A stretch of 64,000 bases of DNA from Parapedobacter koreensis. GTDB lineage: Bacteria; Bacteroidota; Bacteroidia; Sphingobacteriales; Sphingobacteriaceae. Shown one piece after another: positions 4,055 through 15,620 of the stretch; position 1 is the first letter of the stretch, and each line of letters begins with the position of its first letter. A program made the position numbers and the translations under genes. The notes below the pieces were generated by a model that was not told where the DNA came from, searched no databases, and worked only from the letters and a program-made list of their open reading frames with translations. The stretch covers positions 682,001-746,000 of the forward strand of contig NZ_FNZR01000002.1 of NCBI RefSeq assembly GCF_900109365.1, written 5' to 3'.

Positions 4055-5722
4055 TTAATCAAACAGATCGGTGATTTTCTCCTCAGTGAATTCATACGGG
4101 ACCGGCGGCTCCCGCAATAGCGGGTTTTGTATCAGCTCCGACTCGGGGTATGGCAACAGGAATATGGCAGGGGTCACATTTCCGACGGCCCTCGTTTCAC
4201 GGTCCCTATCCGGGTCTTCCCTGAGCACGTTAGGTGCATCAAAAAGAAACGGTACAATCGTACCCCGGTCTTGCGATTCGATGTAGTTGATCACTTCCTG
4301 CTGTTTGTAATACGCCCTGCTCAGCAAGTCATACCAATATAAGCCCTCCATACAAAATTCAACACGCCTTTCATGGCGGATATCGTTATAGGTGATGCTT
4401 GTCTTGGGATCCAAGCCCGCACGTCTGCGCACTTCGTTGAAATAAAAAAGCGCCTGTTCATCACTGCTTGATGCCGCGTTCCCGAGTTCGGCTTCCGCAT
4501 AATTTAAATAGACCTCGGCCAGCCGCAACATATAGGTATTGAGCGCTGAATTCATACGTGCTATCGCCGCGTTGTCCCGGGAGGATCCCACCACCCCTTT
4601 CTTTACATTTAAGAATTGCTGGCCATTTCCCCGCTCATTGAGGTATCCGCCCGCAGCTTTGCTGATCTCCGGATAGAAATCTCCATATCCCATCCAGGTA
4701 GCCTTGCGGCGAATGGAATCCCTTGGCTCATATTCTTTAATCACGTCGTATGTTGCCCTTGTCCAATCCCCCCAGGCCGCATCATCGCCCGTTAGCTGTG
4801 AGCTGGAAGCAAAATAGGCTTGCTGCGGATTGATATAGCCCCAGCCCGTAGCACTGCTGAGGCCGGGAACCCATTGCAAGGCAAACATCGATTCGCTGTT
4901 GTTATTGTTTTCAATTTTGAAGAGATCCGGATAACTATCCATCAACCGGTAACTGCTTTGTGTAATCACTGCCGCTGCAGCCCGTTTGGCCAAATCCAGG
5001 TAAGTCTGGTTGCGCGTACCGCCGTTCGGATTGGCTTCGTTGTCTACATAACCGGAATACGCCAGGTATACACGGGACAGCATCCCGAATGCCGAAAACT
5101 TATTCACCCTTCCGGATTGCAATGAAACCGGGGGCAGGTATTTAGCGGCATATTCGAGATCCCGGATAGCAAACTCAAAGACATCCTTCCTTGGATGGCT
5201 GTTGATGACCGGATTATTGACAATCGGACTGGGGTCTTCGGTAATGATGGCATTCCCCCACAGCGAGGCTAAATACCAATACGCCACGCCGCGCATGAAA
5301 CGGGCTTCAGCGATATAAGTCCGTTTTTCTTCATCGCTGGCCGAACTTTGGTTGATGCTGATGATGACCTTGTTGGACTGCTGGATAACCACATAAAAAG
5401 ATTGCCATGCACTGACCAACGGACCGGTAAGGCCGGTGACCGCGAGATCGGCAAACGGGTAGACATAATCCGAGAATGGCGCATATAAATTATAGGAAGC
5501 ACCATCGCCCAATCCATAGTAAAACTGCCTGTTGAAATCCGACCAAACCACATTATATAACGGCGAGGTCAATGAAGGCAGGTTTTCTTCCGTCAAGCTT
5601 TCCCCGGTAATCAGATTATTGGGTTTTATATCCAGGAAATCGCTGCACGACTGCGTGAGCACAGCAATCACCGAAGCCAGCAGCACATAGATGGGTTTCA
5701 TTGTTATAAATCTATTTTTCAT
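4055..5722 (-). CDS. SusD/RagB-family glycan-binding lipoprotein (pair 1)
   Basis: 555 aa, outer-membrane lipoprotein that forms the lid of a SusC channel and binds the incoming oligosaccharide. The leader ends LTQSC, lipid site Cys26, followed by SDFLDIKPNN, the usual SusD start. The TPR-rich core (AEARFMRGVAYWYLASLWGN) and the C-terminal ELIQNPLLREP tail are typical of RagB/SusD. The start at ATG 5722 lies 4 bp after the susC stop; a GTG at 5746 would overlap susC and add residues before the signal peptide, so it was not used. In the xus scheme this is XusD. Likely xylan oligosaccharide ligand, by context. Confidence 0.95.
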   Translation of the reverse strand: MKNRFITMKPIYVLLASVIAVLTQSCSDFLDIKPNNLITGESLTEENLPSLTSPLYNVVWSDFNRQFYYGLGDGASYNLYAPFSDYVYPFADLAVTGLTGPLVSAWQSFYVVIQQSNKVIISINQSSASDEEKRTYIAEARFMRGVAYWYLASLWGNAIITEDPSPIVNNPVINSHPRKDVFEFAIRDLEYAAKYLPPVSLQSGRVNKFSAFGMLSRVYLAYSGYVDNEANPNGGTRNQTYLDLAKRAAAAVITQSSYRLMDSYPDLFKIENNNNSESMFALQWVPGLSSATGWGYINPQQAYFASSSQLTGDDAAWGDWTRATYDVIKEYEPRDSIRRKATWMGYGDFYPEISKAAGGYLNERGNGQQFLNVKKGVVGSSRDNAAIARMNSALNTYMLRLAEVYLNYAEAELGNAASSSDEQALFYFNEVRRRAGLDPKTSITYNDIRHERRVEFCMEGLYWYDLLSRAYYKQQEVINYIESQDRGTIVPFLFDAPNVLREDPDRDRETRAVGNVTPAIFLLPYPESELIQNPLLREPPVPYEFTEEKITDLFD

Positions 5723-5726
5723 GATT

Positions 5727-8700
5727 TTACAAACTAAGATTAACACCTAAAGTATAAATGCGCGGAGCTGGGTATCGTCCGTTATCCACACCATTCAGCT
5801 GGTTGCCGCCGCTGTAGGTAATGCCAATTTCCGGATCATAGCCTGAATAATTGGTAAATGTGTATACATTTTGCAGGTTGGCATAAATCTTCAGGTTCTG
5901 GAGCTTTATCCGTTCCATCCACCTCGTCGGAAAGTTATAGGCCAGGGTGATGTTCTGGATACGGAGGTAAGATCCGTCTTCGACATAACGGTCGCTGAAC
6001 GCATAGTTGTAATTCGATGTTTGCTGGCCGATTGCCAGCCGGCTCATGTCCCCATCTCCTCCTGCGACCCGCACATTCCGGTAATCATTCGGTCCATCCG
6101 GATCGATCAGCTCAAGGCGTGCGTAATTAAGCGCCTTGGCGTAGAGGTTTGAGATATTCCTGCGTGGATTTTCCAGGAACCTGCGCGAATAATTGATGAC
6201 GTCATTGCCGTATGAACCTGTCAGAAATACGGTCAAATCCCAATTCCGGTAATTAAACGTATTACCAACACCGAAGGTAAAATCCGGTGCCGGATTTCCG
6301 ATGAAAGCGCGGTCCTGTTCGTCGATTATCCCATCGAAATTGACGTCCCGATAGATGTAGTCGCCAACCCATACACCCGTTTGTTCGTCGATGGGAAGAT
6401 CAAACATCACCGGGATCCGATGGATGTCGCCCGCTTCGTCTTTGTAATAAAAGTCTGTAGCCTGCTCAAACCGGCCAACAATCTGATAGCCATAGAACTG
6501 CCCGATGGGTTGCCCCACTATCGTTTGGTTGATAACCGGGCTGTCATTCACACCATACGTGCTGCTCTCGATGGTCCGCGAGTCGATACCGGTCTGTGTA
6601 TTGATGGCCAGCACCTTGTTCCTATTCAACGAAAAAACGAGATTGGTATGCCACCGGAAATTATCCCGCTGGAAATTCGTCGTCGCCAGTGTAAATTCAA
6701 TCCCCCTATTCTGTAAGGAACCAAGGTTTACCCAAGGGCGGCCGCTCGCGCCTGTACCCGCAGTGCCCGCGTATACCGGTAGCGAGGCCTGCAAGAGCAG
6801 GTTTTCGGTCTTCTTATGGTAGAAATCAACCGTGAAATTTACCCTGTCCTGCCACAGGCCGAGGTCGATACCCAGGTTACTGGAGGTTGTGCTCTCCCAT
6901 TTCAAATCTTCGTTGGGTGTATTGGCCGCTATCAATCCGGTGCCCCAGATCGTCGTCGCAGTGCCATATGTAGCGATATATGCATAGTTGTCTGGAATAT
7001 TCTGGTTGCCCACGAGCCCCCACCCCAGGCGCAGCTTCAGGTTGTTGATTGTTGGATGATCCCGCAAAAACCCTTCACTGGAAACCTTCCATGCAAATGC
7101 AGCAGAAGGAAACCATCCGGTACGGTTTTCGGGAGCAAATTTCGAAGACCTGTCCCTTCTCAACGTAGCCGTCAGCAAATACCTGTCGTCATATGAATAA
7201 AAAACCCTGCCAAATTCGGACAGGATGGAACTTGCGCCCGAATACCCCGTGTTGGCCGCCGTCGTTGCATCCCCCAACGACAAGTCCGTTGATCCATTGG
7301 TCGTATAGCCTGTCCGTGATCCACCCAGGAACTCCCAGGATGTTTTCTGCATTTCCTGGCCCAACATTGCATCAATACTATGTACACCGAATGCTTTGGT
7401 ATACGTCAATATATTCCGCCATGTCCAGAATTGGTTAAATTGCTTCGAATAGGTTCCTTCGTTGTTGTCCATGAATTGGGTTGGCGAGAGGTAGTAAGTT
7501 GGTTGGAACCGGTACGAATTGGGCGTACTGTAATCAAACGAGACCTCCGTCCGGAAGGTCAGGCCGGAAAGGATATCCGCTGAGGCAAATGTATTGCCCC
7601 GGATACCGTAAGATTCCATCCGGTTATCGATAAGCGTTGCCATTGCCATTGGGTTGGTAGGCATGAATTGTTCATCAGATGCGGCAAACGACCCATCAGC
7701 GTTCCTTACAGGCACATCCGGAGTTGTCCTCAGCGCGATGGAGACCAAGGACTGGTCGGAAACCGTCAACGTCTGATTCAAGTGGTTAAATGCGAAATTT
7801 ATACCGGCTTTTAAATAACTTTTGACCTGCGATTCAAAATTGCCCGTTAAGGTAAGGCGCTTAAATCCGGAGCCCGCCGCAATGCCATCCTGTTTTAATA
7901 ACCCGCCGGTCAACGCGTAGGTATTCCGCTCACTGCCGCCGGAGATGGAAACGTTGTGGTTGTTCATCTGCGCATTATTAAAAAGTTCGCTTTGCCAATC
8001 GGTGCCTTCACCCAACAAATCAGGACGGATGAAATTGTTGTTCGGCGTGGAGATGTTATAATCCGCCAACGTATTTCGATGCGCCGCATATTGCCTTAAG
8101 TTCAAGACATCCATCTTTTTGGGAATCTGCTGCATGCCGGTATAGCCGTGGTAACTCAGGGTAGAAAATCCGGCTTTCCCCCGCCTCGTGGTAATCACAA
8201 TGACCCCATTGGACGCCCTGGAACCATAGATAGCCGTTGCCGATGCATCTTTCAGCACATCCACGGAAACGATATCCATGGGGTTGATGGAGGCGAGTGC
8301 GTTGGTATTGGTATTATCCCCGCCGGCAGCCCCGCCTTCAATGATGACACCATCTATCACGTAAATCGGTTCCGTGGATGCACTGAGCGAACTGATGCCC
8401 CTTATCCTGACCGAATTGCTCGCCCCGGGCATTCCGGAGTTTTGCTGAAACTGCACACCCGCCACGCGCCCCTGCAATACCTGATCGATATTGACGACCC
8501 CCGATTCCGAAATGGATTTTTCGTTTATCGAGCTTATGGCCCCCGTCAGATCAGACCGCTTTTGCGTTCCATAACCAATGACCACCACTTCATCCAACGT
8601 ATTGGGGTCTTCCGATAGCTGGATACGGATATCGGATCGGCTTTCTACCAGGTGCTCCTGTGTATAATAACCCAAATGGGAGAATACCAACGTGCTTCCG

Positions 8701-8903
8701 TCAGGAACATTGGTGATTTCGAACGAACCATCCTCCCGGGTGTAGGTACCATTGCTGGTTCCCTTTACGTTGATGTTTACCCCCGAGATGGGCTCATCGT
8801 TTTGGTCGACTACCTTCCCCGTTACAGGCTGCTGAGCTTGCACATGGAAAGCCCACAGGAAAGCAAAAACAAAAGCAAGAAATTGTTTCAATTTTGCATT
8901 CAT
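5727..8903 (-). CDS. SusC/RagA-family TonB-dependent oligosaccharide transporter (pair 1)
   Basis: 1058 aa outer-membrane channel importing glycan fragments with energy from TonB. Signal peptide 1-24 (ends VQAQ), CarboxypepD_reg domain about 26-97 (PVTGKVVDQNDEPISGVNI), TonB box LDEVVVIGYG at 103-112, plug about 115-235 with the SusC signature VDVLKDASATAIYGSRASNG, then a 22-stranded barrel ending YTLGVNLSL. Length is normal for SusC. The gene is followed by susD, glycan-binding protein and xylanase with 4-27 bp gaps, an operon. A 339-bp leader separates it from the preceding susD and holds its own promoter, LacI-type operator and structured leader. Confidence 0.96.
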   Translation of the reverse strand: MNAKLKQFLAFVFAFLWAFHVQAQQPVTGKVVDQNDEPISGVNINVKGTSNGTYTREDGSFEITNVPDGSTLVFSHLGYYTQEHLVESRSDIRIQLSEDPNTLDEVVVIGYGTQKRSDLTGAISSINEKSISESGVVNIDQVLQGRVAGVQFQQNSGMPGASNSVRIRGISSLSASTEPIYVIDGVIIEGGAAGGDNTNTNALASINPMDIVSVDVLKDASATAIYGSRASNGVIVITTRRGKAGFSTLSYHGYTGMQQIPKKMDVLNLRQYAAHRNTLADYNISTPNNNFIRPDLLGEGTDWQSELFNNAQMNNHNVSISGGSERNTYALTGGLLKQDGIAAGSGFKRLTLTGNFESQVKSYLKAGINFAFNHLNQTLTVSDQSLVSIALRTTPDVPVRNADGSFAASDEQFMPTNPMAMATLIDNRMESYGIRGNTFASADILSGLTFRTEVSFDYSTPNSYRFQPTYYLSPTQFMDNNEGTYSKQFNQFWTWRNILTYTKAFGVHSIDAMLGQEMQKTSWEFLGGSRTGYTTNGSTDLSLGDATTAANTGYSGASSILSEFGRVFYSYDDRYLLTATLRRDRSSKFAPENRTGWFPSAAFAWKVSSEGFLRDHPTINNLKLRLGWGLVGNQNIPDNYAYIATYGTATTIWGTGLIAANTPNEDLKWESTTSSNLGIDLGLWQDRVNFTVDFYHKKTENLLLQASLPVYAGTAGTGASGRPWVNLGSLQNRGIEFTLATTNFQRDNFRWHTNLVFSLNRNKVLAINTQTGIDSRTIESSTYGVNDSPVINQTIVGQPIGQFYGYQIVGRFEQATDFYYKDEAGDIHRIPVMFDLPIDEQTGVWVGDYIYRDVNFDGIIDEQDRAFIGNPAPDFTFGVGNTFNYRNWDLTVFLTGSYGNDVINYSRRFLENPRRNISNLYAKALNYARLELIDPDGPNDYRNVRVAGGDGDMSRLAIGQQTSNYNYAFSDRYVEDGSYLRIQNITLAYNFPTRWMERIKLQNLKIYANLQNVYTFTNYSGYDPEIGITYSGGNQLNGVDNGRYPAPRIYTLGVNLSL

Positions 8904-8993
8904 ATTTTATAAGCTTTAATTGATATAATTGATTAGTATTATCCCCGTTGCCTGGACAGACGCATACACCGGTTAGCCACCATAAACTGAAAA

Positions 8994-9007
8994 CCAACGT
9001 TGGCATG
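8994..9007. promoter_or_regulatory. Palindromic element CCAACGTTGG, copy 1
   Basis: A perfect 10-bp palindrome with a central CG, extended by CATG, lies 91 bp upstream of the susC start. The same 14 bases occur 84 bp upstream of the other tandem susC gene (14374-14387). A CG-centred palindrome is the classic form of a LacI-family operator, but it lies inside the predicted transcribed leader, so it may instead act as a roadblock site or an RNA element. Confidence 0.6.
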
Positions 9008-9039
9008 CAAAGCCGTCCGGTATCCAAATATGTTCTTCC

Positions 9040-9100
9040 ACCGATGCAAAAAGGTCTGAAAATCGGTTTATAAGCACCCCAAAAGGGGTTTGGTTATTCC
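9040..9100 (-). promoter_or_regulatory. Candidate structured mRNA leader of susC pair 1
   Basis: Read on the minus strand, the RNA would contain AAUAACCAA, stem P1 (ACCCC-UUUU-GGGGU, bases 9076-9089), UUAUAAACC, then stem P2 (ACCGAU at 9067-9062 pairing with AUCGGU at 9045-9040). The leader of the other tandem susC gene has the same blocks in the same order, with different but still pairing stem bases. The stretch begins about 10 nt after the -7 element, so it would be the 5' end of the message. Confidence 0.55.
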
Positions 9101-9108
9101 GCTACCCA

Positions 9109-9148
9109 CAAATCTAAAAATAAAAAATGAAAACCGCAACCGATTGCA
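9109..9148 (-). promoter_or_regulatory. susC pair 1 promoter overlapped by LacI-type operator
   Basis: On the minus strand: -33 element TTGC (9139-9136), a 19-nt spacer, and -7 element TAGATTTG (9116-9109), matching Bacteroidota TTTG-N19-TAnnTTTG. The -33 element is inside GCAACCGATTGCA (9136-9148), which fits the LacI/PurR consensus GCAAnCGnTTGC. The same 13 bases occur at the lacI promoter (14508-14520). Binding there should block the promoter. The transcript would have a leader of about 200 nt. Confidence 0.7.
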
Positions 9149-9184
9149 TGTTTTTACATAAAGGCAAAAGACGCTCCAATCCAT

Positions 9185-9224
9185 AAGGCCGGTAGATCCC
9201 CTCATCGTGGACACTACCGGCCTT
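9185..9224 (-). terminator. Hairpin after susD of pair 2
   Basis: Perfect 11-bp inverted repeat (AAGGCCGGTAG at 9185-9195, CTACCGGCCTT at 9214-9224) with an 18-nt loop, 18 bp after the susD stop on the minus strand. It separates pair 2 from the promoter of pair 1. The T tract that would follow is poor, so termination may be partial. Confidence 0.6.
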
Positions 9225-9242
9225 GTTAATTGGACATTCAGG

Positions 9243-11177
9243 TTAATTGTATCCTGGATTCTGATACATTTCGGTCTCCCCTTCCATCGCATCCAGCTGG
9301 CCCTGCGGAATGGGCCGCAAGTAGTGATATGGCTGGATACTTCGTGTCACCGTTTGCGGCGTATGGTCACCGATATTGGGTCCGCAGATTTCATACGTAC
9401 CCGCCAATTCGGTCCATTTCTGTGTACGTATCAGATCGTACCACCGATAACCTTCACCATAGTATTCACGTGACCGTTCGGCCAAGATATAGTCGATGTC
9501 TATCGTCGCCGGTGTGGCAGCGACCAAGGCGGCACTATTATCGGCTATTTTCTCCACATTTCCGTTGTTATCCCAGCGCCACTTTCCCGCGCGCTCACGG
9601 ATGACGTTGATAAGATCCCGCGCGCTACGCGTACCCGATGCACCTTTCACAGCGGCCTCAGCCGCGATAAGGTAGAGCTCTGAGAATTTAGCAATATTAA
9701 ACGGCCGCGTGCTCGCTGCATTCGGCTGCCCCAATCCATCGCCATTATCGGTGCGGTAAGGGCCAAGTTTCCAAAGCCCGGGATAGACGCGCCGACTGAC
9801 GCCACGGGGCGACACCACAAAATCGCTCCTTCCGGGCAGTATACCTGCGCCGACGTTACTATTATAGGTCGAATTGGAGTAATCAATAGTTCCTTCCGGT
9901 TCCTCATCCAGAAAGGTCAGTATCGCATCGCCGGGGTTTACCGGCGCAAAATTTACGTTGTACACCGGGCCACTGACACCGGCCTTATCCCAGTTGCCAC
10001 GATAAACGGTGGTAAACGTGCCATCGTAGCGGGAGTCATTGGTCTTGTCGGCAAAGGTATTGGTAATCGCTCCAATCGTGGGACTCATCCGCATCCACGG
10101 CCGCCCGAGCGCTTGCTCGGCTTCACGCTGGACGGAACTCATAGCCGTCCACCCCGAGTTGGACGAACTGCTTCGGATTTCGGTATAATTCCATGTCATC
10201 ATCCATCCGGCAAAGTTCTCCGGAGCTTCACCATTGCTATACGTAAGGCTTCCTGCGTTGTAAAATTCACTGCTCTCCGTATGGTCGGCATACAACAAGA
10301 TTTCGTTGTTGCGATCATTTGGCCCCAAATTGACGTCGTAGAATGTCGGCTGTAAACCGAAGGGCCCCGGGTTGTCGATACCCGCTGTTGCCACATCATA
10401 TGCCTGCTGGTAGTACCACTGGGCATCATGTCCATCCGGATCGACACGATTGGTCTCCGGATAGGTCGGAATATTATTCGGGTTTTCCAGCCACCATCCG
10501 TAGGTCAGGTAAGCTTTTGCGAGATATAGGCGAGCAACCGTTTTGGTGACACCGCCCGTTACCCGGCCGGCATCCGGCAAATCATTTACCGCGACCAGCA
10601 AATCCGGGAAAATAGCTTTGGTGTACACCTCAGGCACGGTATTCCGCGCGGAGGTCCTGCTGGGATTGGTGTTGAACGCCAGTTCGCCTGCACCCAAATC
10701 CAGCGGTATCCCGCCAAAGGTCTGCACCAGTATGAAATAGTCGAACGCCCGGAAGAACCTGGCTTCGGCGATCAACGCATTTGAGATTGTACCTACTTCT
10801 GCGGCATTTTCAATGATACCGCTTGCCGTGTTGATATTGCTGAATGCAGTGCCCCACAGGACATCAGCACGGCTGTTGATCGGCGTGATCTGTCCCTGCC
10901 CGCTGAGGTCCATGACCAGGAAGTTTTCGTCCGCCCCTTGCCCATACGTTGCCTCATCGGTGCCCGTGAGGGTCGTGTTATAATAGTAAGCCTGCCCATA
11001 AATGTAACGCAGGTGTGCGTACATGGAGGTTATTCCACCTTGGACGCCTTTTTCGGTCGTGAAAAAACCGGGCTCATAAATGCTACGCGGTTGTTCGTCC
11101 AAAATCTTAGCGCATGCCGAAAAGAACAACGCTATCACGGCTGCTCCTATATAATTGATATTACGTGTCTGTTTCAT
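9243..11177 (-). CDS. SusD/RagB-family glycan-binding lipoprotein (pair 2)
   Basis: 644 aa, surface lipoprotein partner of the SusC encoded 11 bp upstream. The leader ends ALFFSAC (lipid site Cys22), followed by AKILDEQPRS. It has the SusD helical core (EARFFRAFDYFILVQTFGG), the internal AEAAVKGASGTRSARDLINVIRERAG segment near the last TPR, and the usual end GETEMYQNPGYN. It is longer than the SusD of pair 1 (555 aa), so the two pairs probably bind different chain lengths or decorations of the same glycan. Tandem SusCD pairs upstream of an SGBP and a GH10 enzyme match XusB in the conserved xylan locus. Confidence 0.95.
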   Translation of the reverse strand: MKQTRNINYIGAAVIALFFSACAKILDEQPRSIYEPGFFTTEKGVQGGITSMYAHLRYIYGQAYYYNTTLTGTDEATYGQGADENFLVMDLSGQGQITPINSRADVLWGTAFSNINTASGIIENAAEVGTISNALIAEARFFRAFDYFILVQTFGGIPLDLGAGELAFNTNPSRTSARNTVPEVYTKAIFPDLLVAVNDLPDAGRVTGGVTKTVARLYLAKAYLTYGWWLENPNNIPTYPETNRVDPDGHDAQWYYQQAYDVATAGIDNPGPFGLQPTFYDVNLGPNDRNNEILLYADHTESSEFYNAGSLTYSNGEAPENFAGWMMTWNYTEIRSSSSNSGWTAMSSVQREAEQALGRPWMRMSPTIGAITNTFADKTNDSRYDGTFTTVYRGNWDKAGVSGPVYNVNFAPVNPGDAILTFLDEEPEGTIDYSNSTYNSNVGAGILPGRSDFVVSPRGVSRRVYPGLWKLGPYRTDNGDGLGQPNAASTRPFNIAKFSELYLIAAEAAVKGASGTRSARDLINVIRERAGKWRWDNNGNVEKIADNSAALVAATPATIDIDYILAERSREYYGEGYRWYDLIRTQKWTELAGTYEICGPNIGDHTPQTVTRSIQPYHYLRPIPQGQLDAMEGETEMYQNPGYN

Positions 11178-11188
11178 TACTATTTTCT

Positions 11189-14100
11189 TTAAAATACCAG
11201 GTTAATACCAAACAAGTAACTACGCGTTGCCGGCGAATTCGTACCAATCGTCAATAACCGGGGCCGGTACGTATTGGTTACCGCCGCATTTTCGTCAGCA
11301 TAGGAGTTGGTTTCCGGATCCAATCCGGTCTCCCTGTTATAGGGAGAGAACAAGACAAATGGATTCTGTACCGTGAAATAAAACCGCAACCGGTCAATGC
11401 CGGCACGTTGCACCCAATCGCTGCCGTCGAAGTTATAGCCCAGTGACAGCGTGCGTATCTTCAGGTGCGATGCATCGAAGTAACCCAGGGTACTGCCGTA
11501 CTTCGGATTGTCGCCGCTGATAATACCACCGGGCATGGGATACCGCGCATCGGTATTTTCCGGCGTCCAGTAGTCTACCCGCACGTTATTCCTGCGTCCG
11601 CTCAGCATATTCAGGTAGCCGGATGCGGTGTGGAGCGTACTGATGAGCGTGCCACCGCGCTGGAACATCCCTACAGCGCTCAAATCAATATTTTTATAGG
11701 CAACACGCGTGTTGAAACCGCCCTGAAAATCAGGCTGCAGATTGATAATTTGCCGGTCGGCAAGCCCGATTGCCCGGGCAGGTGTCCCATCGTCATTATA
11801 ATCGCCGGTGTATTTTACCTTGACCATACCCACGTTTCCACCCGGTTCCAGGATATCCAGGTAAGGGTCTCCCTCCTGCCAGAGTCCCGTATACTCGTAA
11901 TCAAAAACGACATCAATGGGATGTCCTACGAACCACCAGTTGCCTTCGTCCCTGTCCTGTCCGGAAGCCAATGCCACCAGCTTGTTGCGGTTGCCATACA
12001 CGTTGATACCAGCTTCCCAAGTCCAGCCATTGTGGTCATCCAATATCACCCCATTGAGCGAAAGCTCCAACCCTTTATTTTGTGTTTCCCCAATGTTAGC
12101 CGTGTAACTTCCCACACCCGCTGTATTCGGCAGATTGACATTCAACAGCACATCGTTGGTGTTTGTTACATAATACTCTAAGGTACCGGACAAACGGCTG
12201 TTCAGGATGGAGAAGTCCAACCCATAGTTCCACGTTTCCGAATATTCCCATCCCAAACCTGCATTGGGCAATTGGGATACATAATAGCCTACAGCATAGT
12301 TATCGCTGCCGAAATTATACGGCCGGGTGTTCAAACGCCCCAATGTCGCATAGGGGGCAATAGCCTGATTGGAGGTTTGCCCGTAGCCCACCCGCAGTTT
12401 GAGCATGTCCACAAAGGAAACGTCTTGCATAAACGCTTCTCTTCCAATATTCCATCCGGCTGATATCGCTGGATACGTGTGCCATTTGTGACCCGATGCC
12501 AGCCTTGAGGAGCCGTCGGACCGCAGCGTGGCCGACAGCATATAGCGATCGTCATAGGAATACATGACACGGCCCATCCACGACATCAATCCCCACAATT
12601 CATAGATCTGTCCATTCGGATCGATCGTAATTTCGCCTGTTGCCTGCCCCAGGTTATAGAACTGGAATGCATCAGCGGGAATATCCCTTGCCGCTATACC
12701 CGATTGGTTGAATTTGTTCTGCTCGGAAGAGTACAATGCCGTTACATTGATGTTGTGTTTTTCAGCAAACGTACGGTCGTAGGTCAGCAGGTTTTCAACG
12801 ACCCAGTGATAGGTGTGCTGGTTGCTGATGGAAGCCGATGAAGGTGTGGTGGGGTTTGTGGCGTTTATGCCCTGCCCGGTATAGGCCCCACCATTGCTTT
12901 GGCGGTAGTCCAAACCAAGATTGATTCGATACTTCAGCCCCTCGACCCAAGGTACACTCACTTCGCCATATACGGAGTTGTATGTAGCATAAGCCCGGGT
13001 CTCGTTTAACCATTGGTCTTGTACACCTTCTATAATTTCCCTCGTGGCCGTCCAGGGCTCATCCAAGGGCATGCGTATCGTCCGTTTCCAGGTGCCGTCC
13101 TCATTGTAGGGATTGGCTATCGGCGACATGCTTAAAGCGGCATACAACCCCACTTGGGAACCTTCTGTCATATTATAATTGTTGTTGGTGGTAAAGCCGA
13201 CCCGGAAATAATCCCCCAGTTGCTGATCGACCGTACCGCGCAATGAAATACGGCTGTATTTTTGCGTGGGAACCACGCCTTCATCCTGGAAGTAGCCCCC
13301 GCCGAAATTATAGTTGCCCTTTTCAGTGCCAGCCGAAACGCCGACATCCTGGCTGATTGTATTTCCGGTTCGGTAAAATAGATCCTGCCAATCGGTATTG
13401 ACATCATCAGATTCATCCAATCCATTCTGGTACTGGCCAGCAGCGGCACGGAGCGCGGCAAATTCCGGTCCATTCATCATCGGATATTTGGAAAAAATAG
13501 TTTTAAAACCCTGAAAGCTGTTGTAGGATACGCGTGCCGCTTGCCCGCTCTGCCCTTTGTTGGTGGTCACCAATATCACGCCGTTGGCCCCGCGCGACCC
13601 ATAAATCGCGGTTGCAGAAGCATCCTTGAGGATATCAAGACTCTTAATGTCGTTCGGATTGATGTCACCGATGGACCCCGCAAAGGGGATACCATCGAGC
13701 ACCACCAACGGGTCGTTGCTGGCATTCAGCGAACGTGTACCACGGATACGGATTTGCGTAGTTGCGCCCGGTTGTGATGAGGTTTGCGATAGCTGTACCC
13801 CCGGCAAACGCCCTTGCAAGGCCTGCGAAATATTCGCCGATGGCACGTCGCGCATCTGATCGCCGCCGATTGTGGCCACCGAACCTGTCACCGCTTCTTT
13901 CCGCTGGACACCGTATCCCACAACAATCACTTCATCTAACGCACTGGCTTCCCCTACCAATGTGACGGTCAATTGCTGGTCAGCTTCGCCCACTTTAATC
14001 TCTTGCGTAGCATATCCAACATAGCTGAATATCAATGCACTGCTTGCAGGCACACGGATAGTGAAGCGGCCGCCGTCATCGGTAGACGTGCTTGCTGTGC

Positions 14101-14290
14101 CCACACTCGACCGGATGGAAACCCCACTCAGCGCCACGCCTCCTTCATCGACAACGATCCCTGATATCCCCACGCCACCGCCTTGGGCCATGGTGTATAC
14201 GGAATAAAAAAACAAAAGCAACGATAGACAGGCGGCTTTGATGGCTTTCCCTCGCTGTCGCCGCAATCCCGGTTTGTATACGCTTATCAT
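11189..14290 (-). CDS. SusC/RagA-family TonB-dependent oligosaccharide transporter (pair 2)
   Basis: 1033 aa. Signal peptide to about residue 36 (YTMAQ) with an unusually long basic N-region, CarboxypepD_reg domain about 42-112, TonB box LDEVIVVGYG at 118-127, plug with the LDILKDASATAIYGSRGANG signature, then the barrel. First gene of its operon, transcribed divergently from the lacI regulator with a 292-bp shared region carrying operator, promoter and structured leader. Corresponds in position to XusA of the xylan core locus. Substrate (xylan oligosaccharides) is inferred from the neighbouring GH67, GH115 and GH10 genes. Confidence 0.96.
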   Translation of the reverse strand: MISVYKPGLRRQRGKAIKAACLSLLLFFYSVYTMAQGGGVGISGIVVDEGGVALSGVSIRSSVGTASTSTDDGGRFTIRVPASSALIFSYVGYATQEIKVGEADQQLTVTLVGEASALDEVIVVGYGVQRKEAVTGSVATIGGDQMRDVPSANISQALQGRLPGVQLSQTSSQPGATTQIRIRGTRSLNASNDPLVVLDGIPFAGSIGDINPNDIKSLDILKDASATAIYGSRGANGVILVTTNKGQSGQAARVSYNSFQGFKTIFSKYPMMNGPEFAALRAAAGQYQNGLDESDDVNTDWQDLFYRTGNTISQDVGVSAGTEKGNYNFGGGYFQDEGVVPTQKYSRISLRGTVDQQLGDYFRVGFTTNNNYNMTEGSQVGLYAALSMSPIANPYNEDGTWKRTIRMPLDEPWTATREIIEGVQDQWLNETRAYATYNSVYGEVSVPWVEGLKYRINLGLDYRQSNGGAYTGQGINATNPTTPSSASISNQHTYHWVVENLLTYDRTFAEKHNINVTALYSSEQNKFNQSGIAARDIPADAFQFYNLGQATGEITIDPNGQIYELWGLMSWMGRVMYSYDDRYMLSATLRSDGSSRLASGHKWHTYPAISAGWNIGREAFMQDVSFVDMLKLRVGYGQTSNQAIAPYATLGRLNTRPYNFGSDNYAVGYYVSQLPNAGLGWEYSETWNYGLDFSILNSRLSGTLEYYVTNTNDVLLNVNLPNTAGVGSYTANIGETQNKGLELSLNGVILDDHNGWTWEAGINVYGNRNKLVALASGQDRDEGNWWFVGHPIDVVFDYEYTGLWQEGDPYLDILEPGGNVGMVKVKYTGDYNDDGTPARAIGLADRQIINLQPDFQGGFNTRVAYKNIDLSAVGMFQRGGTLISTLHTASGYLNMLSGRRNNVRVDYWTPENTDARYPMPGGIISGDNPKYGSTLGYFDASHLKIRTLSLGYNFDGSDWVQRAGIDRLRFYFTVQNPFVLFSPYNRETGLDPETNSYADENAAVTNTYRPRLLTIGTNSPATRSYLFGINLVF

Positions 14291-14373
14291 ACTGTAGGAT
14301 TTTATTGGTTTAATAATTTAGTTAATTGCTACTTTACCGTATCCACTTGACCAATTTTCCCAACTGCACAGTT

Positions 14374-14387
14374 CCAACGTTGGCATG
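14374..14387. promoter_or_regulatory. Palindromic element CCAACGTTGG, copy 2
   Basis: Second copy of CCAACGTTGGCATG, 84 bp upstream of the susC of pair 2. Flanking bases differ from the first copy, so the conserved part is the palindrome plus CATG. Confidence 0.6.
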
Positions 14388-14404
14388 TGGCACTTTTGAC
14401 AACT

Positions 14405-14473
14405 ACCTTATCATCGAAATGATTGAATCTGGATAAGGTTTATAACGTCCTCCCGGACCTTGGTTATTTCTTT
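14405..14473 (-). promoter_or_regulatory. Candidate structured mRNA leader of susC pair 2
   Basis: Minus-strand RNA order: AAUAACCAA, stem P1 (GUCC-GGGA-GGAC, bases 14447-14458, closing a GNRA-type loop), UUAUAAACC, stem P2 (ACCUUAUC at 14439-14432 pairing with GAUAAGGU at 14412-14405). Compared with the leader of pair 1, both stems differ in sequence but keep pairing, while the single-stranded blocks are identical. Confidence 0.55.
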
Positions 14474-14480
14474 CTGTGGG

Positions 14481-14520
14481 TAAAGGTAGAAACAAAAATT
14501 AATTTATGCAACCGATTGCA
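14481..14520 (-). promoter_or_regulatory. susC pair 2 promoter sharing the lacI operator
   Basis: On the minus strand a TTGC -33 element (14511-14508), 19-nt spacer and TACCTTTA at the -7 position (14488-14481; one mismatch to TAnnTTTG). The -33 part lies in the same palindrome that covers the lacI promoter on the plus strand, so one operator could control both divergent transcripts. Confidence 0.55.
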
Positions 14521-14546
14521 AAAAAAAACTTTTTTTCTTATTTTAG
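14507..14546 (+). promoter_or_regulatory. lacI-GH67-GH10-GH115 promoter with operator
   Basis: TGCAACCGATTGCA (14507-14520) is a palindrome of the GCAAnCGnTTGC type. Its TTGC half (14516-14519) is the -33 element; after 19 nt comes TATTTTAG (14539-14546), one base from TAnnTTTG. The ATG of the regulator follows 36 bp later. This arrangement suggests autoregulation by the LacI-family protein. Confidence 0.62.
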
Positions 14547-14582
14547 CCGAACCATTTAGTGAACCGTATTTTTACCAAACAA

Positions 14583-15620
14583 ATGAGTACGTCCAACGAG
14601 AAAAAAGAAGTAACCATTTATGATATTGCGGCTGCCCTCCAAATATCAGCGGCAACCGTGAGCCGGGGGCTGAAAAACCATCCCGCAATCAAGCAGGCTA
14701 CGAAAGATCGGATTTTTGCCCAAGCCGAGCGCATGGGATACCGATTCAACACCTTTGCCCGCAACCTGCGGACAAAACGAACGTATACAATCGGTGTCAT
14801 TGTACCCCGGTTGAATAGTATGTTTATGTCGGATGTCATTGCTGGCATGGAAAAGGTATCCAATGAAGCAGGCTATGAACTAATCATCAGCCAATCCCTG
14901 GAGACCATGGAAAAAGAAATGAAGAACGCCGTTACCATGTTTAATAACAGAGTGGATGGTTTATTGGTATCCCTGGCCTATACGACAACAGGCATTGACC
15001 ATTTCAAGCGCTTCTTTGATAAAAATATTCCCTTGATTTTCTTTGACCGCGTATTCGAACACCCCAACTGCCCGAATATCGTCATCAACAATTATAAAGC
15101 AGCCTACGAGCTTACTTCCTACCTTATCCAGCAAGGTGCCCGGCGTATTATGCATGTAGCGGGTAATCTCAACAGGAATGTCTATAGCCAACGCTTCAAG
15201 GGGTACAGAGACGCCTTGTTAGACAATGGCATTCAATTCCAGGAAGGCTGGCTCATCGTCAATAACCTCAGTGCAGAAGACGGCATACATACCGCAAAAC
15301 ACATCTATGCACTGACGGAACGGCCCGATGCCGTCTTTGTAGCCAATGATACCTGCGCAGTGGCTTGCATGCAGGAATTGAAACGAAATGGCATATACGT
15401 CCCGAAAGACATCCTCGTTGCTGGATTTAACAACGATCCGATCGCTACGGTGGTTGAACCCAACCTCACTACCGTTAATTATCGGGGGCCTGAAATGGGA
15501 GAAATGGCAGCCAAAACACTCATCAACCTGCTTAATGGAAATGGTGAACAGCATACCGCGGCAACCATCATGCTGCGCCATGAATTGATCATACGGGATT
15601 CTACCCAACGACCACAATGA
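14583..15620 (+). CDS. LacI-family transcriptional regulator
   Basis: 345 aa DNA-binding regulator. The N-terminal helix-turn-helix is clear (VTIYDIAAALQISAATVSRGL, about residues 10-30), then the hinge (NTFARNLRTKRTYTIGVIVP), then a periplasmic-binding-protein-like sensor domain (about 68-335) with FVANDTCAVACMQELKRNG and ILVAGFNNDPIATVVEPNL. It starts at ATG 14583; an in-frame GTG at 14559 would add eight residues before the HTH region and was rejected. It heads a four-gene run with GH67, GH10 and GH115 (gaps 25, 11 and 32 bp). It probably represses this operon and both susC promoters until a xylan-derived sugar binds. LacI control of a xylan locus is less usual in Bacteroidota than control by a hybrid two-component system. 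Confidence 0.92.
   Translation: MSTSNEKKEVTIYDIAAALQISAATVSRGLKNHPAIKQATKDRIFAQAERMGYRFNTFARNLRTKRTYTIGVIVPRLNSMFMSDVIAGMEKVSNEAGYELIISQSLETMEKEMKNAVTMFNNRVDGLLVSLAYTTTGIDHFKRFFDKNIPLIFFDRVFEHPNCPNIVINNYKAAYELTSYLIQQGARRIMHVAGNLNRNVYSQRFKGYRDALLDNGIQFQEGWLIVNNLSAEDGIHTAKHIYALTERPDAVFVANDTCAVACMQELKRNGIYVPKDILVAGFNNDPIATVVEPNLTTVNYRGPEMGEMAAKTLINLLNGNGEQHTAATIMLRHELIIRDSTQRPQ

Follow-up and report, generated by a model that had tools for sequence, protein, structure and literature searches.

The leaders of susC1 and susC2, two genes in a 64-kb window of the Parapedobacter koreensis genome (the whole stretch of DNA analyzed; the 5.5-Mb genome is referred to here as G000), are probably doubly repressed promoter regions of a xylan utilization locus. 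Judged from sequence, one LacI-family regulator (LacI-1), encoded divergently from susC1, would act at an upstream site, O1, and a second one (XylR), encoded outside the window, would act at a site within the leader, O2. An earlier note on this DNA had described conserved blocks and two stems, P1 and P2, in both leaders, and had interpreted them as a cis-acting RNA. The blocks and stems are indeed present as described on the minus strand, the stems differ between the leaders and still pair (ACCCC/GGGGT versus GTCC/GGAC in P1, with different P2 arms), and the region does look like the control region of xylan SusCD operons. The proposal of a conserved regulatory RNA was not supported, since the 3' block is explained as an operator, the linkers occur elsewhere without P1, and P1 is missing from two leaders of GH10 genes.

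The 3' block of both leaders matches a xylR-type operator

The minus strand has AATAACCAA-ACCCC/TTTT/GGGGT-GC-TTATAAACC in the susC2 leader (9098-8994) and AATAACCAA-G-GTCC/GGGA/GGAC-G-TTATAAACC in the susC1 leader (14468-14374). In both, P2 and then the 3' block CATGCCAACGTTGG follow, the latter ending at 8994 and 14374, respectively. This block is the most conserved one of both leaders, and its sequence is best read as the DNA operator of the second LacI-family regulator, which is encoded beside xylBA.

A weight matrix was built solely from the xylR-xylB sites of 10 genomes and was independent of the leader sites. The two leader O2 sites were the top and second sites of the window (Table 1), and the third-best place scored 4.8 bits. 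Among 40 Markov windows, one contained a single site of at least 16.6 bits, and none contained a second site above 12.8 bits. O2 is a near-perfect palindrome with a central AACGTT. The xylB-xylA promoter, 5.5 kb outside the window and beside the gene of the second LacI-family regulator, carries the palindrome ATGCCAACGTTAGCAT. The 16-mer was found upstream of this regulator gene in all 10 genomes examined (nine of the genus and G048), as ATGCCAACGTTAGCAT or its reverse complement in nine of them and as ATGCCAACGTTGGCGT in G048. Reading away from the regulator gene, it was preceded by TA(C/T)CTTTA in all ten; we take TAnnTTTG to be the form of the -7 element.

In the two genomes checked (G000 and G003), the gene beyond the site encodes a xylulokinase-like FGGY kinase and is followed by a xylose isomerase gene (above cut-off); the best match of the kinase, XylB, scored 315 and 301 bits, respectively, below the curated cut-off of 380. 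The regulator itself (L238:8455-9588) passes the cut-offs for a LacI domain (PF00356) and a sugar-binding domain (PF00532), and no NCBIfam equivalog reached its cut-off. It is a paralogue of LacI-1 in the genus (38-39% identity), and the same palindrome adjoins it. The name XylR was given from the neighbor genes and is putative.

Exact ATGCCAACGTTGG was present in six of the nine genus genomes, at eight places, among them the G003 orthologue of susC1 and a GH10 gene in G045. The promoter region of the G003 orthologue is otherwise different, and a hybrid two-component regulator gene ends approximately 110 nt upstream. The AT flank of O2 is found on the opposite side in G087; such a flip is harmless for a palindromic DNA site and disruptive for an RNA motif. 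An exact copy in G068, between open reading frames (ORFs) resembling those of a sigma factor and an oxidoreductase, was taken for a chance match. Separately, the one-mismatch O2-like site TGCCAACGATAGCA (L250:1501; G000:C6:233691) is located about 40 nt before a 390-aa ORF, possibly a further XylR target.

O1 accompanies LacI-1 and its orthologues

The exact 13-mer TGCAATCGGTTGC occurs at three places in the genome: upstream of the susC1 and susC2 promoters and, as a third place, 0.8 kb outside the window. LacI-1 orthologues were detected in five of 10 other genomes (G028, 92% identity; G045, 80%; G048, 64%; G087, 54%; G017, 51%), while the other five gave best matches of 37-39% only. O1 adjoins the orthologue gene in each of these five genomes, as it adjoins LacI-1 in G000. 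In G003, where the best LacI-1 match is 39% and no orthologue is present, no O1 within two mismatches was found in 19.5 kb around the susC orthologue; three O1-like places were found there at three mismatches.

In the LacI family, the residues of the recognition helix read the bases. The helices of LacI-1 and XylR differ, and each is conserved within its own protein: of six LacI-1 rows, four had ISAATVSR, that of G017 had ISPTTVSR and that of G048 was unreadable, and 9/9 XylR rows had ITFSTVAR. A search for O1 followed by O2 yielded 10 places in 8 of 399 genomes. Seven places were kept, two each in G000 and G045 and one each in G017, G028 and G048; those in G203, G314 and G358 were dropped as chance on sequence inspection only. 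In G045 and G017, O1 and O2 flank the promoter region of GH10 genes.

Three loci deserve mention on their own. The third exact O1 (L202:5184; G000:C18:681183) is flanked by genes for a GH43 lipoprotein and a SASA-domain esterase-like protein, and no O2 was found there in the O1 scan. In G048 (L240, 8097-9455), GH67 follows the LacI-1 orthologue, the divergent gene is fructose-6-phosphate aldolase/transaldolase-like, and the region between the divergent genes carries O1 and a perfect O2 (TGCCAACGTTGGCA). In G003 (L205:16717-16800), the susC orthologue behind the hybrid two-component regulator gene keeps the xylR-type site without LacI-1 and O1; this arrangement suggests a switch of regulator with one operator kept.

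The linkers also occur before other susC genes

Within the 5.5-Mb genome, the pattern AATAACCAA-N8..30-TTATAAACC was found in the two susC leaders only. Homologues of SusC2 were detected in 126 of 399 genomes at E ≤ 1e-200, and 29 loci were fetched among the more than 150 matches listed. In 7 of the 29, the linkers ATAACCAA and TTATAAAC stand 5-8 nt apart directly 5' of the ATG, with neither P1 nor an operator; AACCAA or AAACCA occurs up to 130 nt upstream in 23. No O1 or O2 within two mismatches was found in the 600 nt upstream of the homologue at the 29 loci. Because AATAACCAA/TTATAAAC are thus present without P1 or an operator ahead of other susC genes, the linkers seem to be a common part of susC leaders in the family. 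The distance from CCAA to ATAAACC is 2 nt in the GH10 leader of G045 and 0 nt in that of G017, compared to 16-18 nt in four P1 leaders. At seven loci upstream of a SusC2 homologue (L263-L270), a small CCC...GGG hairpin with a varying loop immediately precedes ATAACCAA-n-TTATAAAC and the ATG.

The stems are modestly above chance

Stems were assessed by keeping the conserved blocks fixed and shuffling the variable stretches 20,000 times, with p as the chance of a stem at least as long. In addition to the values in Table 1, we obtained p = 0.09 (P1) and 0.016 (P2) for the orthologous leader of G028 and p = 0.16 (P1) and 0.19 (P2) for that of G045. The four window stems combined gave p = 0.0015 (Fisher), a post hoc value, since the leaders had been picked for their stems. 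The minimum free energy (MFE) z-scores were -0.73 (susC1), 0.03 (G028 orthologue) and -0.74 (susC2), and those of four further leaders were -0.73, 0.11, -1.42 and -0.24. Thus, over seven leaders the range was -1.42 to 0.11, and none stood out from its shuffles in fold stability. We conclude that the stems are modestly above chance and that the leaders are not unusually stable. A closing helix CCAA/UUGG around both stems, judged by eye, was dropped because its pairs are invariant.

The susC1-type P1 stem is identical in susC1, G028 and G045, with differing loops (GGGA, AUGC and AUGU, respectively). P2 retains 8/8 pairs in G028, one of them changed from U-A to C-G, and 6/8 in G045. Among the three orthologous susC1 leaders, which vary little, 1 of 12 pairs was changed on both sides, a value reached by 350 of 500 shuffles. 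When the susC2 leader was added, 3 of 14 pairs were changed on both sides, and five P2 pairs were broken or gapped, each in one sequence. P1 is absent from the GH10 leaders of G045 and G017, which have the same promoter and operators.

Homology searches revealed no further copy of the leader

The 64-kb window contained no Rfam match at the gathering score. At E values up to 10, a search restricted to the vicinity of susC2 returned sub-threshold chance matches, none of them credible, and a riboswitch by homology was rejected on this ground. The earlier note had proposed a covariance-model search of relatives. A model built on the three orthologous susC1 leaders (susC1, G028 and G045) was run with stricter filters against 301 family genomes at E ≤ 0.1. 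Four genomes matched: those of the three training leaders and G191 (E = 0.046). The G191 match is antisense to an 885-aa ORF and was regarded as a chance hit, so that no new copy was found. Further homologues with compensating changes, on which the earlier note had staked its proposal, are nearly lacking, with two close orthologues only.

In 277 kb of loci, the same model detected the susC2 leader with 25.7 bits (E = 0.018), a match that was not recovered at E 0.1 genome-wide. The next matches were leaders of G017, G003, G087 and G045 (E = 0.034 to 0.79), in which the 3' block is present and P1 is absent. A looser linker pattern matched in 120 of the 301 genomes, and its reversed control also matched in many; from this list only G028 was taken, by eye for its hairpin. 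Among the 117 stretches listed for named genomes, none had CCAACGTTGG within 150 nt downstream except in G000. The pattern ATAAACC...GCCAACGTT was found in 66 of 399 genomes; outside the genus only G017 was followed up, and the others were taken for chance. A plasmid search with the susC1 leader gave short, weak matches only. Four terminator-like sites were predicted in 8850-14600. None coincides with a leader on the minus strand, and the site at 9076-9089 belongs to the plus strand.

A model of double repression and its alternatives

The mechanism that we infer for the two leaders would work as follows. LacI-1 would bind O1 (TGCAATCGGTTGCA) beside the upstream promoter element and hinder initiation, and XylR would bind O2 (ATGCCAACGTTGG) inside the transcribed leader and block elongation or an early complex as a roadblock. 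Xylose, or a relative of xylose, would release XylR from O2, and transcription of susCD would require both signals. At xylB, where O2 sits at the promoter itself, XylR would block initiation. P1 and P2 would form short hairpins near the mRNA 5' end that probably shield the end or aid mRNA stability, rather than a ligand-sensing domain; the protection of the 5' end is a guess.

What the sequences show are the sites, their shared positions, the ranking by an independent matrix, and the co-occurrence of O1 with LacI-1; binding, effectors, the roadblock and the role of the hairpins are inferred. Several points weigh against this model. The proposed sensing of xylose by XylR rests on the neighbor genes of the regulator. 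Genome-wide, O2-like sequences with up to two mismatches occur at 53 and 55 places, compared to 43 and 40 for the reversed control; with hardly any enrichment, the site alone therefore does not define a regulon genome-wide. The leader O2 is asymmetric, with AAC or TTT as its right flank instead of GCAT. Moreover, there are four other one-mismatch O2 places, none established as functional: two overlap ORFs, one is not covered by any ORF of 90 aa or more, and one is C6:233691. Finally, P1 and P2 of susC1 exceed chance frequency, and the operator model leaves the stems unexplained. We consider them real in sequence, local features between the operators, perhaps for mRNA stability.

An RNA reading takes these stems as its core. 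A cis-acting RNA composed of P1, P2 and the conserved linkers, be it a riboswitch, an attenuator or a protein-binding leader, would fit the stems that differ yet pair between the two leaders (two P1 pairs and different P2 arms), the P1 stem kept with a changed loop in G028 and G045, the P2 change in G028, and the combined, post hoc stem probability. Its best remaining argument is that P1 sits between blocks that are adjacent elsewhere, as would suit the insertion of an RNA hairpin. We nevertheless regard it as unlikely, given the lack of an Rfam family at the gathering score, the ordinary MFE z-scores, the single compensating pair among 12 that most shuffles equaled, the covariance model that found the second window leader weakly and nothing new, the GH10 leaders without P1, and the lack of a leader-strand terminator in the leaders. 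It is likewise improbable that a genuine small RNA element (P1 and P2 joined by AACCAA and UUAUAAACC) was inserted between two LacI-type operators; one promoter would then be governed by two sugar sensors that bind DNA and, as a third control, by an RNA that affects susC translation or mRNA life.

The same stems could also be read at the DNA level, with P1 as a third palindromic site (GTCC-N4-GGAC) near the transcription start: in the three orthologues the arms are identical and the spacer is changed, as a dimeric DNA-binding protein would also give. However, susC2 has CCCC-N4-GGGG, no gene or other site supports such a protein, and P1 is absent from the two GH10 leaders examined, making this reading very improbable. 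Least credible is a leader peptide, in which ATGCCAACGTTGG would start a short upstream ORF (MPTL...). By eye, an ATG does open the block in both window leaders, G028, G045 (two), G003, G017 and G048. However, no residues are shared after MPTL and the lengths differ, the codons are conserved in every letter, third positions included, G087 has no ATG in this orientation, and the same letters form the operator at the xylB promoter.

Double repression by LacI-1 and XylR thus puts a testable regulatory circuit in place of a guess at an RNA with two copies. If it is true, the xylan susCD genes are locked by two LacI-type repressors, one of them shared with xylose catabolism, tying polymer uptake to sugar use. 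The matrix and the O1-O2 spacing may be used to find the regulon in relatives. The case also calls for caution, as operator palindromes within transcribed leaders can pass for conserved RNA.

The locus is a xylan locus

Behind the leaders, a domain search identified two SusC/SusD pairs, followed by a surface glycan-binding protein-like protein and a GH10 xylanase; the divergent lacI gene is followed by GH67 and GH10 genes. This gene content identifies the locus as a xylan locus. SusC1 and SusC2 are only 29% identical, and therefore recent duplication, an explanation that the earlier note had kept in play, is excluded for the genes. SusC1 orthologues were present in four of the eight other genus genomes (G028, 87%; G045, 69%; G003, 68%; G087, 65%), and SusC2 had no match at E ≤ 1e-250 in these eight. 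An inverted repeat, GGCCGGTAG...CTACCGGCC (9224-9180, minus strand), lies immediately downstream of the susD1 stop codon and upstream of the susC2 promoter. It has no good T run and is a candidate boundary between the two susCD operons.

Table 1. Positions of sites, stems and genes in the 64-kb window
Feature	Position	Strand	Description
O2 of susC2	8991..9006	-	ATGCCAACGTTGG(TTT), inside 5' leader; 16.7 bits, top site of the window
O2 of susC1	14371..14386	-	ATGCCAACGTTGG(AAC), inside 5' leader; 16.6 bits, second site of the window
O1 of susC2	9135..9148	-	TGCAATCGGTTGCG, LacI-type site upstream of promoter; exact 13-mer TGCAATCGGTTGC
O1 of susC1	14507..14520	-	TGCAATCGGTTGCA, LacI-type site between susC1 and divergent lacI gene
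P1 of susC2 leader	9076..9089	-	ACCCC-TTTT-GGGGT; paired in MFE fold; shuffling p = 0.12
P2 of susC2 leader	9040..9067	-	ACCGAT (9067-9062)/ATCGGT (9045-9040); shuffling p = 0.12
P1 of susC1 leader	14447..14458	-	GTCC-GGGA-GGAC; shuffling p = 0.07
P2 of susC1 leader	14405..14439	-	ACCTTATC (14439-14432)/GATAAGGT (14412-14405); shuffling p = 0.004
LacI-1	14559..15620	+	LacI-family regulator divergent from susC1; Pfam PF00356 and PF13377 above cut-off
susC1	11189..14290	-	Plug and TonB-dependent receptor barrel domains
susD1	9243..11177	-	SusD_RagB and SusD-like_3
susC2	5727..8903	-	Plug and CarbopepD_reg_2
susD2	4055..5746	-	SusD_RagB and SusD-like_3

Comparison with known systems

We found neither this leader nor, for this group, a LacI-type XylR described in the open-licence full-text literature. 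The comparisons below draw on excerpts of the cited papers. LacI control of xylan loci as such is already known: either LacI-family regulators or hybrid two-component systems (HTCS) control beta-1,4-xylan systems (PMC12125979). Like the regulators proposed here, HTCS govern susCD and xylanase genes, and an HTCS gene precedes the G003 susC orthologue and the G045 GH10 gene. In contrast, LacI-type sites are present at the susC1 and susC2 promoters, and a lacI gene occupies the divergent position. RNA-based control at susC leaders is known from Bacteroides, where DonS-type antisense RNAs act (PMC7366714); these also act at susC leaders but are encoded on the other strand.

In Bacteroides, the pentose regulator AraR has sites not only at its own catabolic operon but also at genes for polysaccharides in which the sugar occurs (PMC4666351), and NrtR-family AraR/XylR proteins thus resemble the candidate XylR in combining own-operon and polysaccharide-gene sites. 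They differ in being Nudix-related NrtR proteins rather than LacI-family ones, and the excerpts of PMC4666351 describe no comparable leader operator. A parallel to the proposed roadblock is CcpA/cre at the xyl, ara and gnt operons of Bacillus subtilis, where a LacI-family protein binds a pseudo-palindrome with a central CG at sites downstream of the start and blocks elongation; cre is positioned at +144 (xylA) and +230 (xynP) (PMC3463425). CcpA is a global catabolite regulator, whereas the candidate here is a local XylR encoded beside xylBA, with a second LacI-type site at the promoter.

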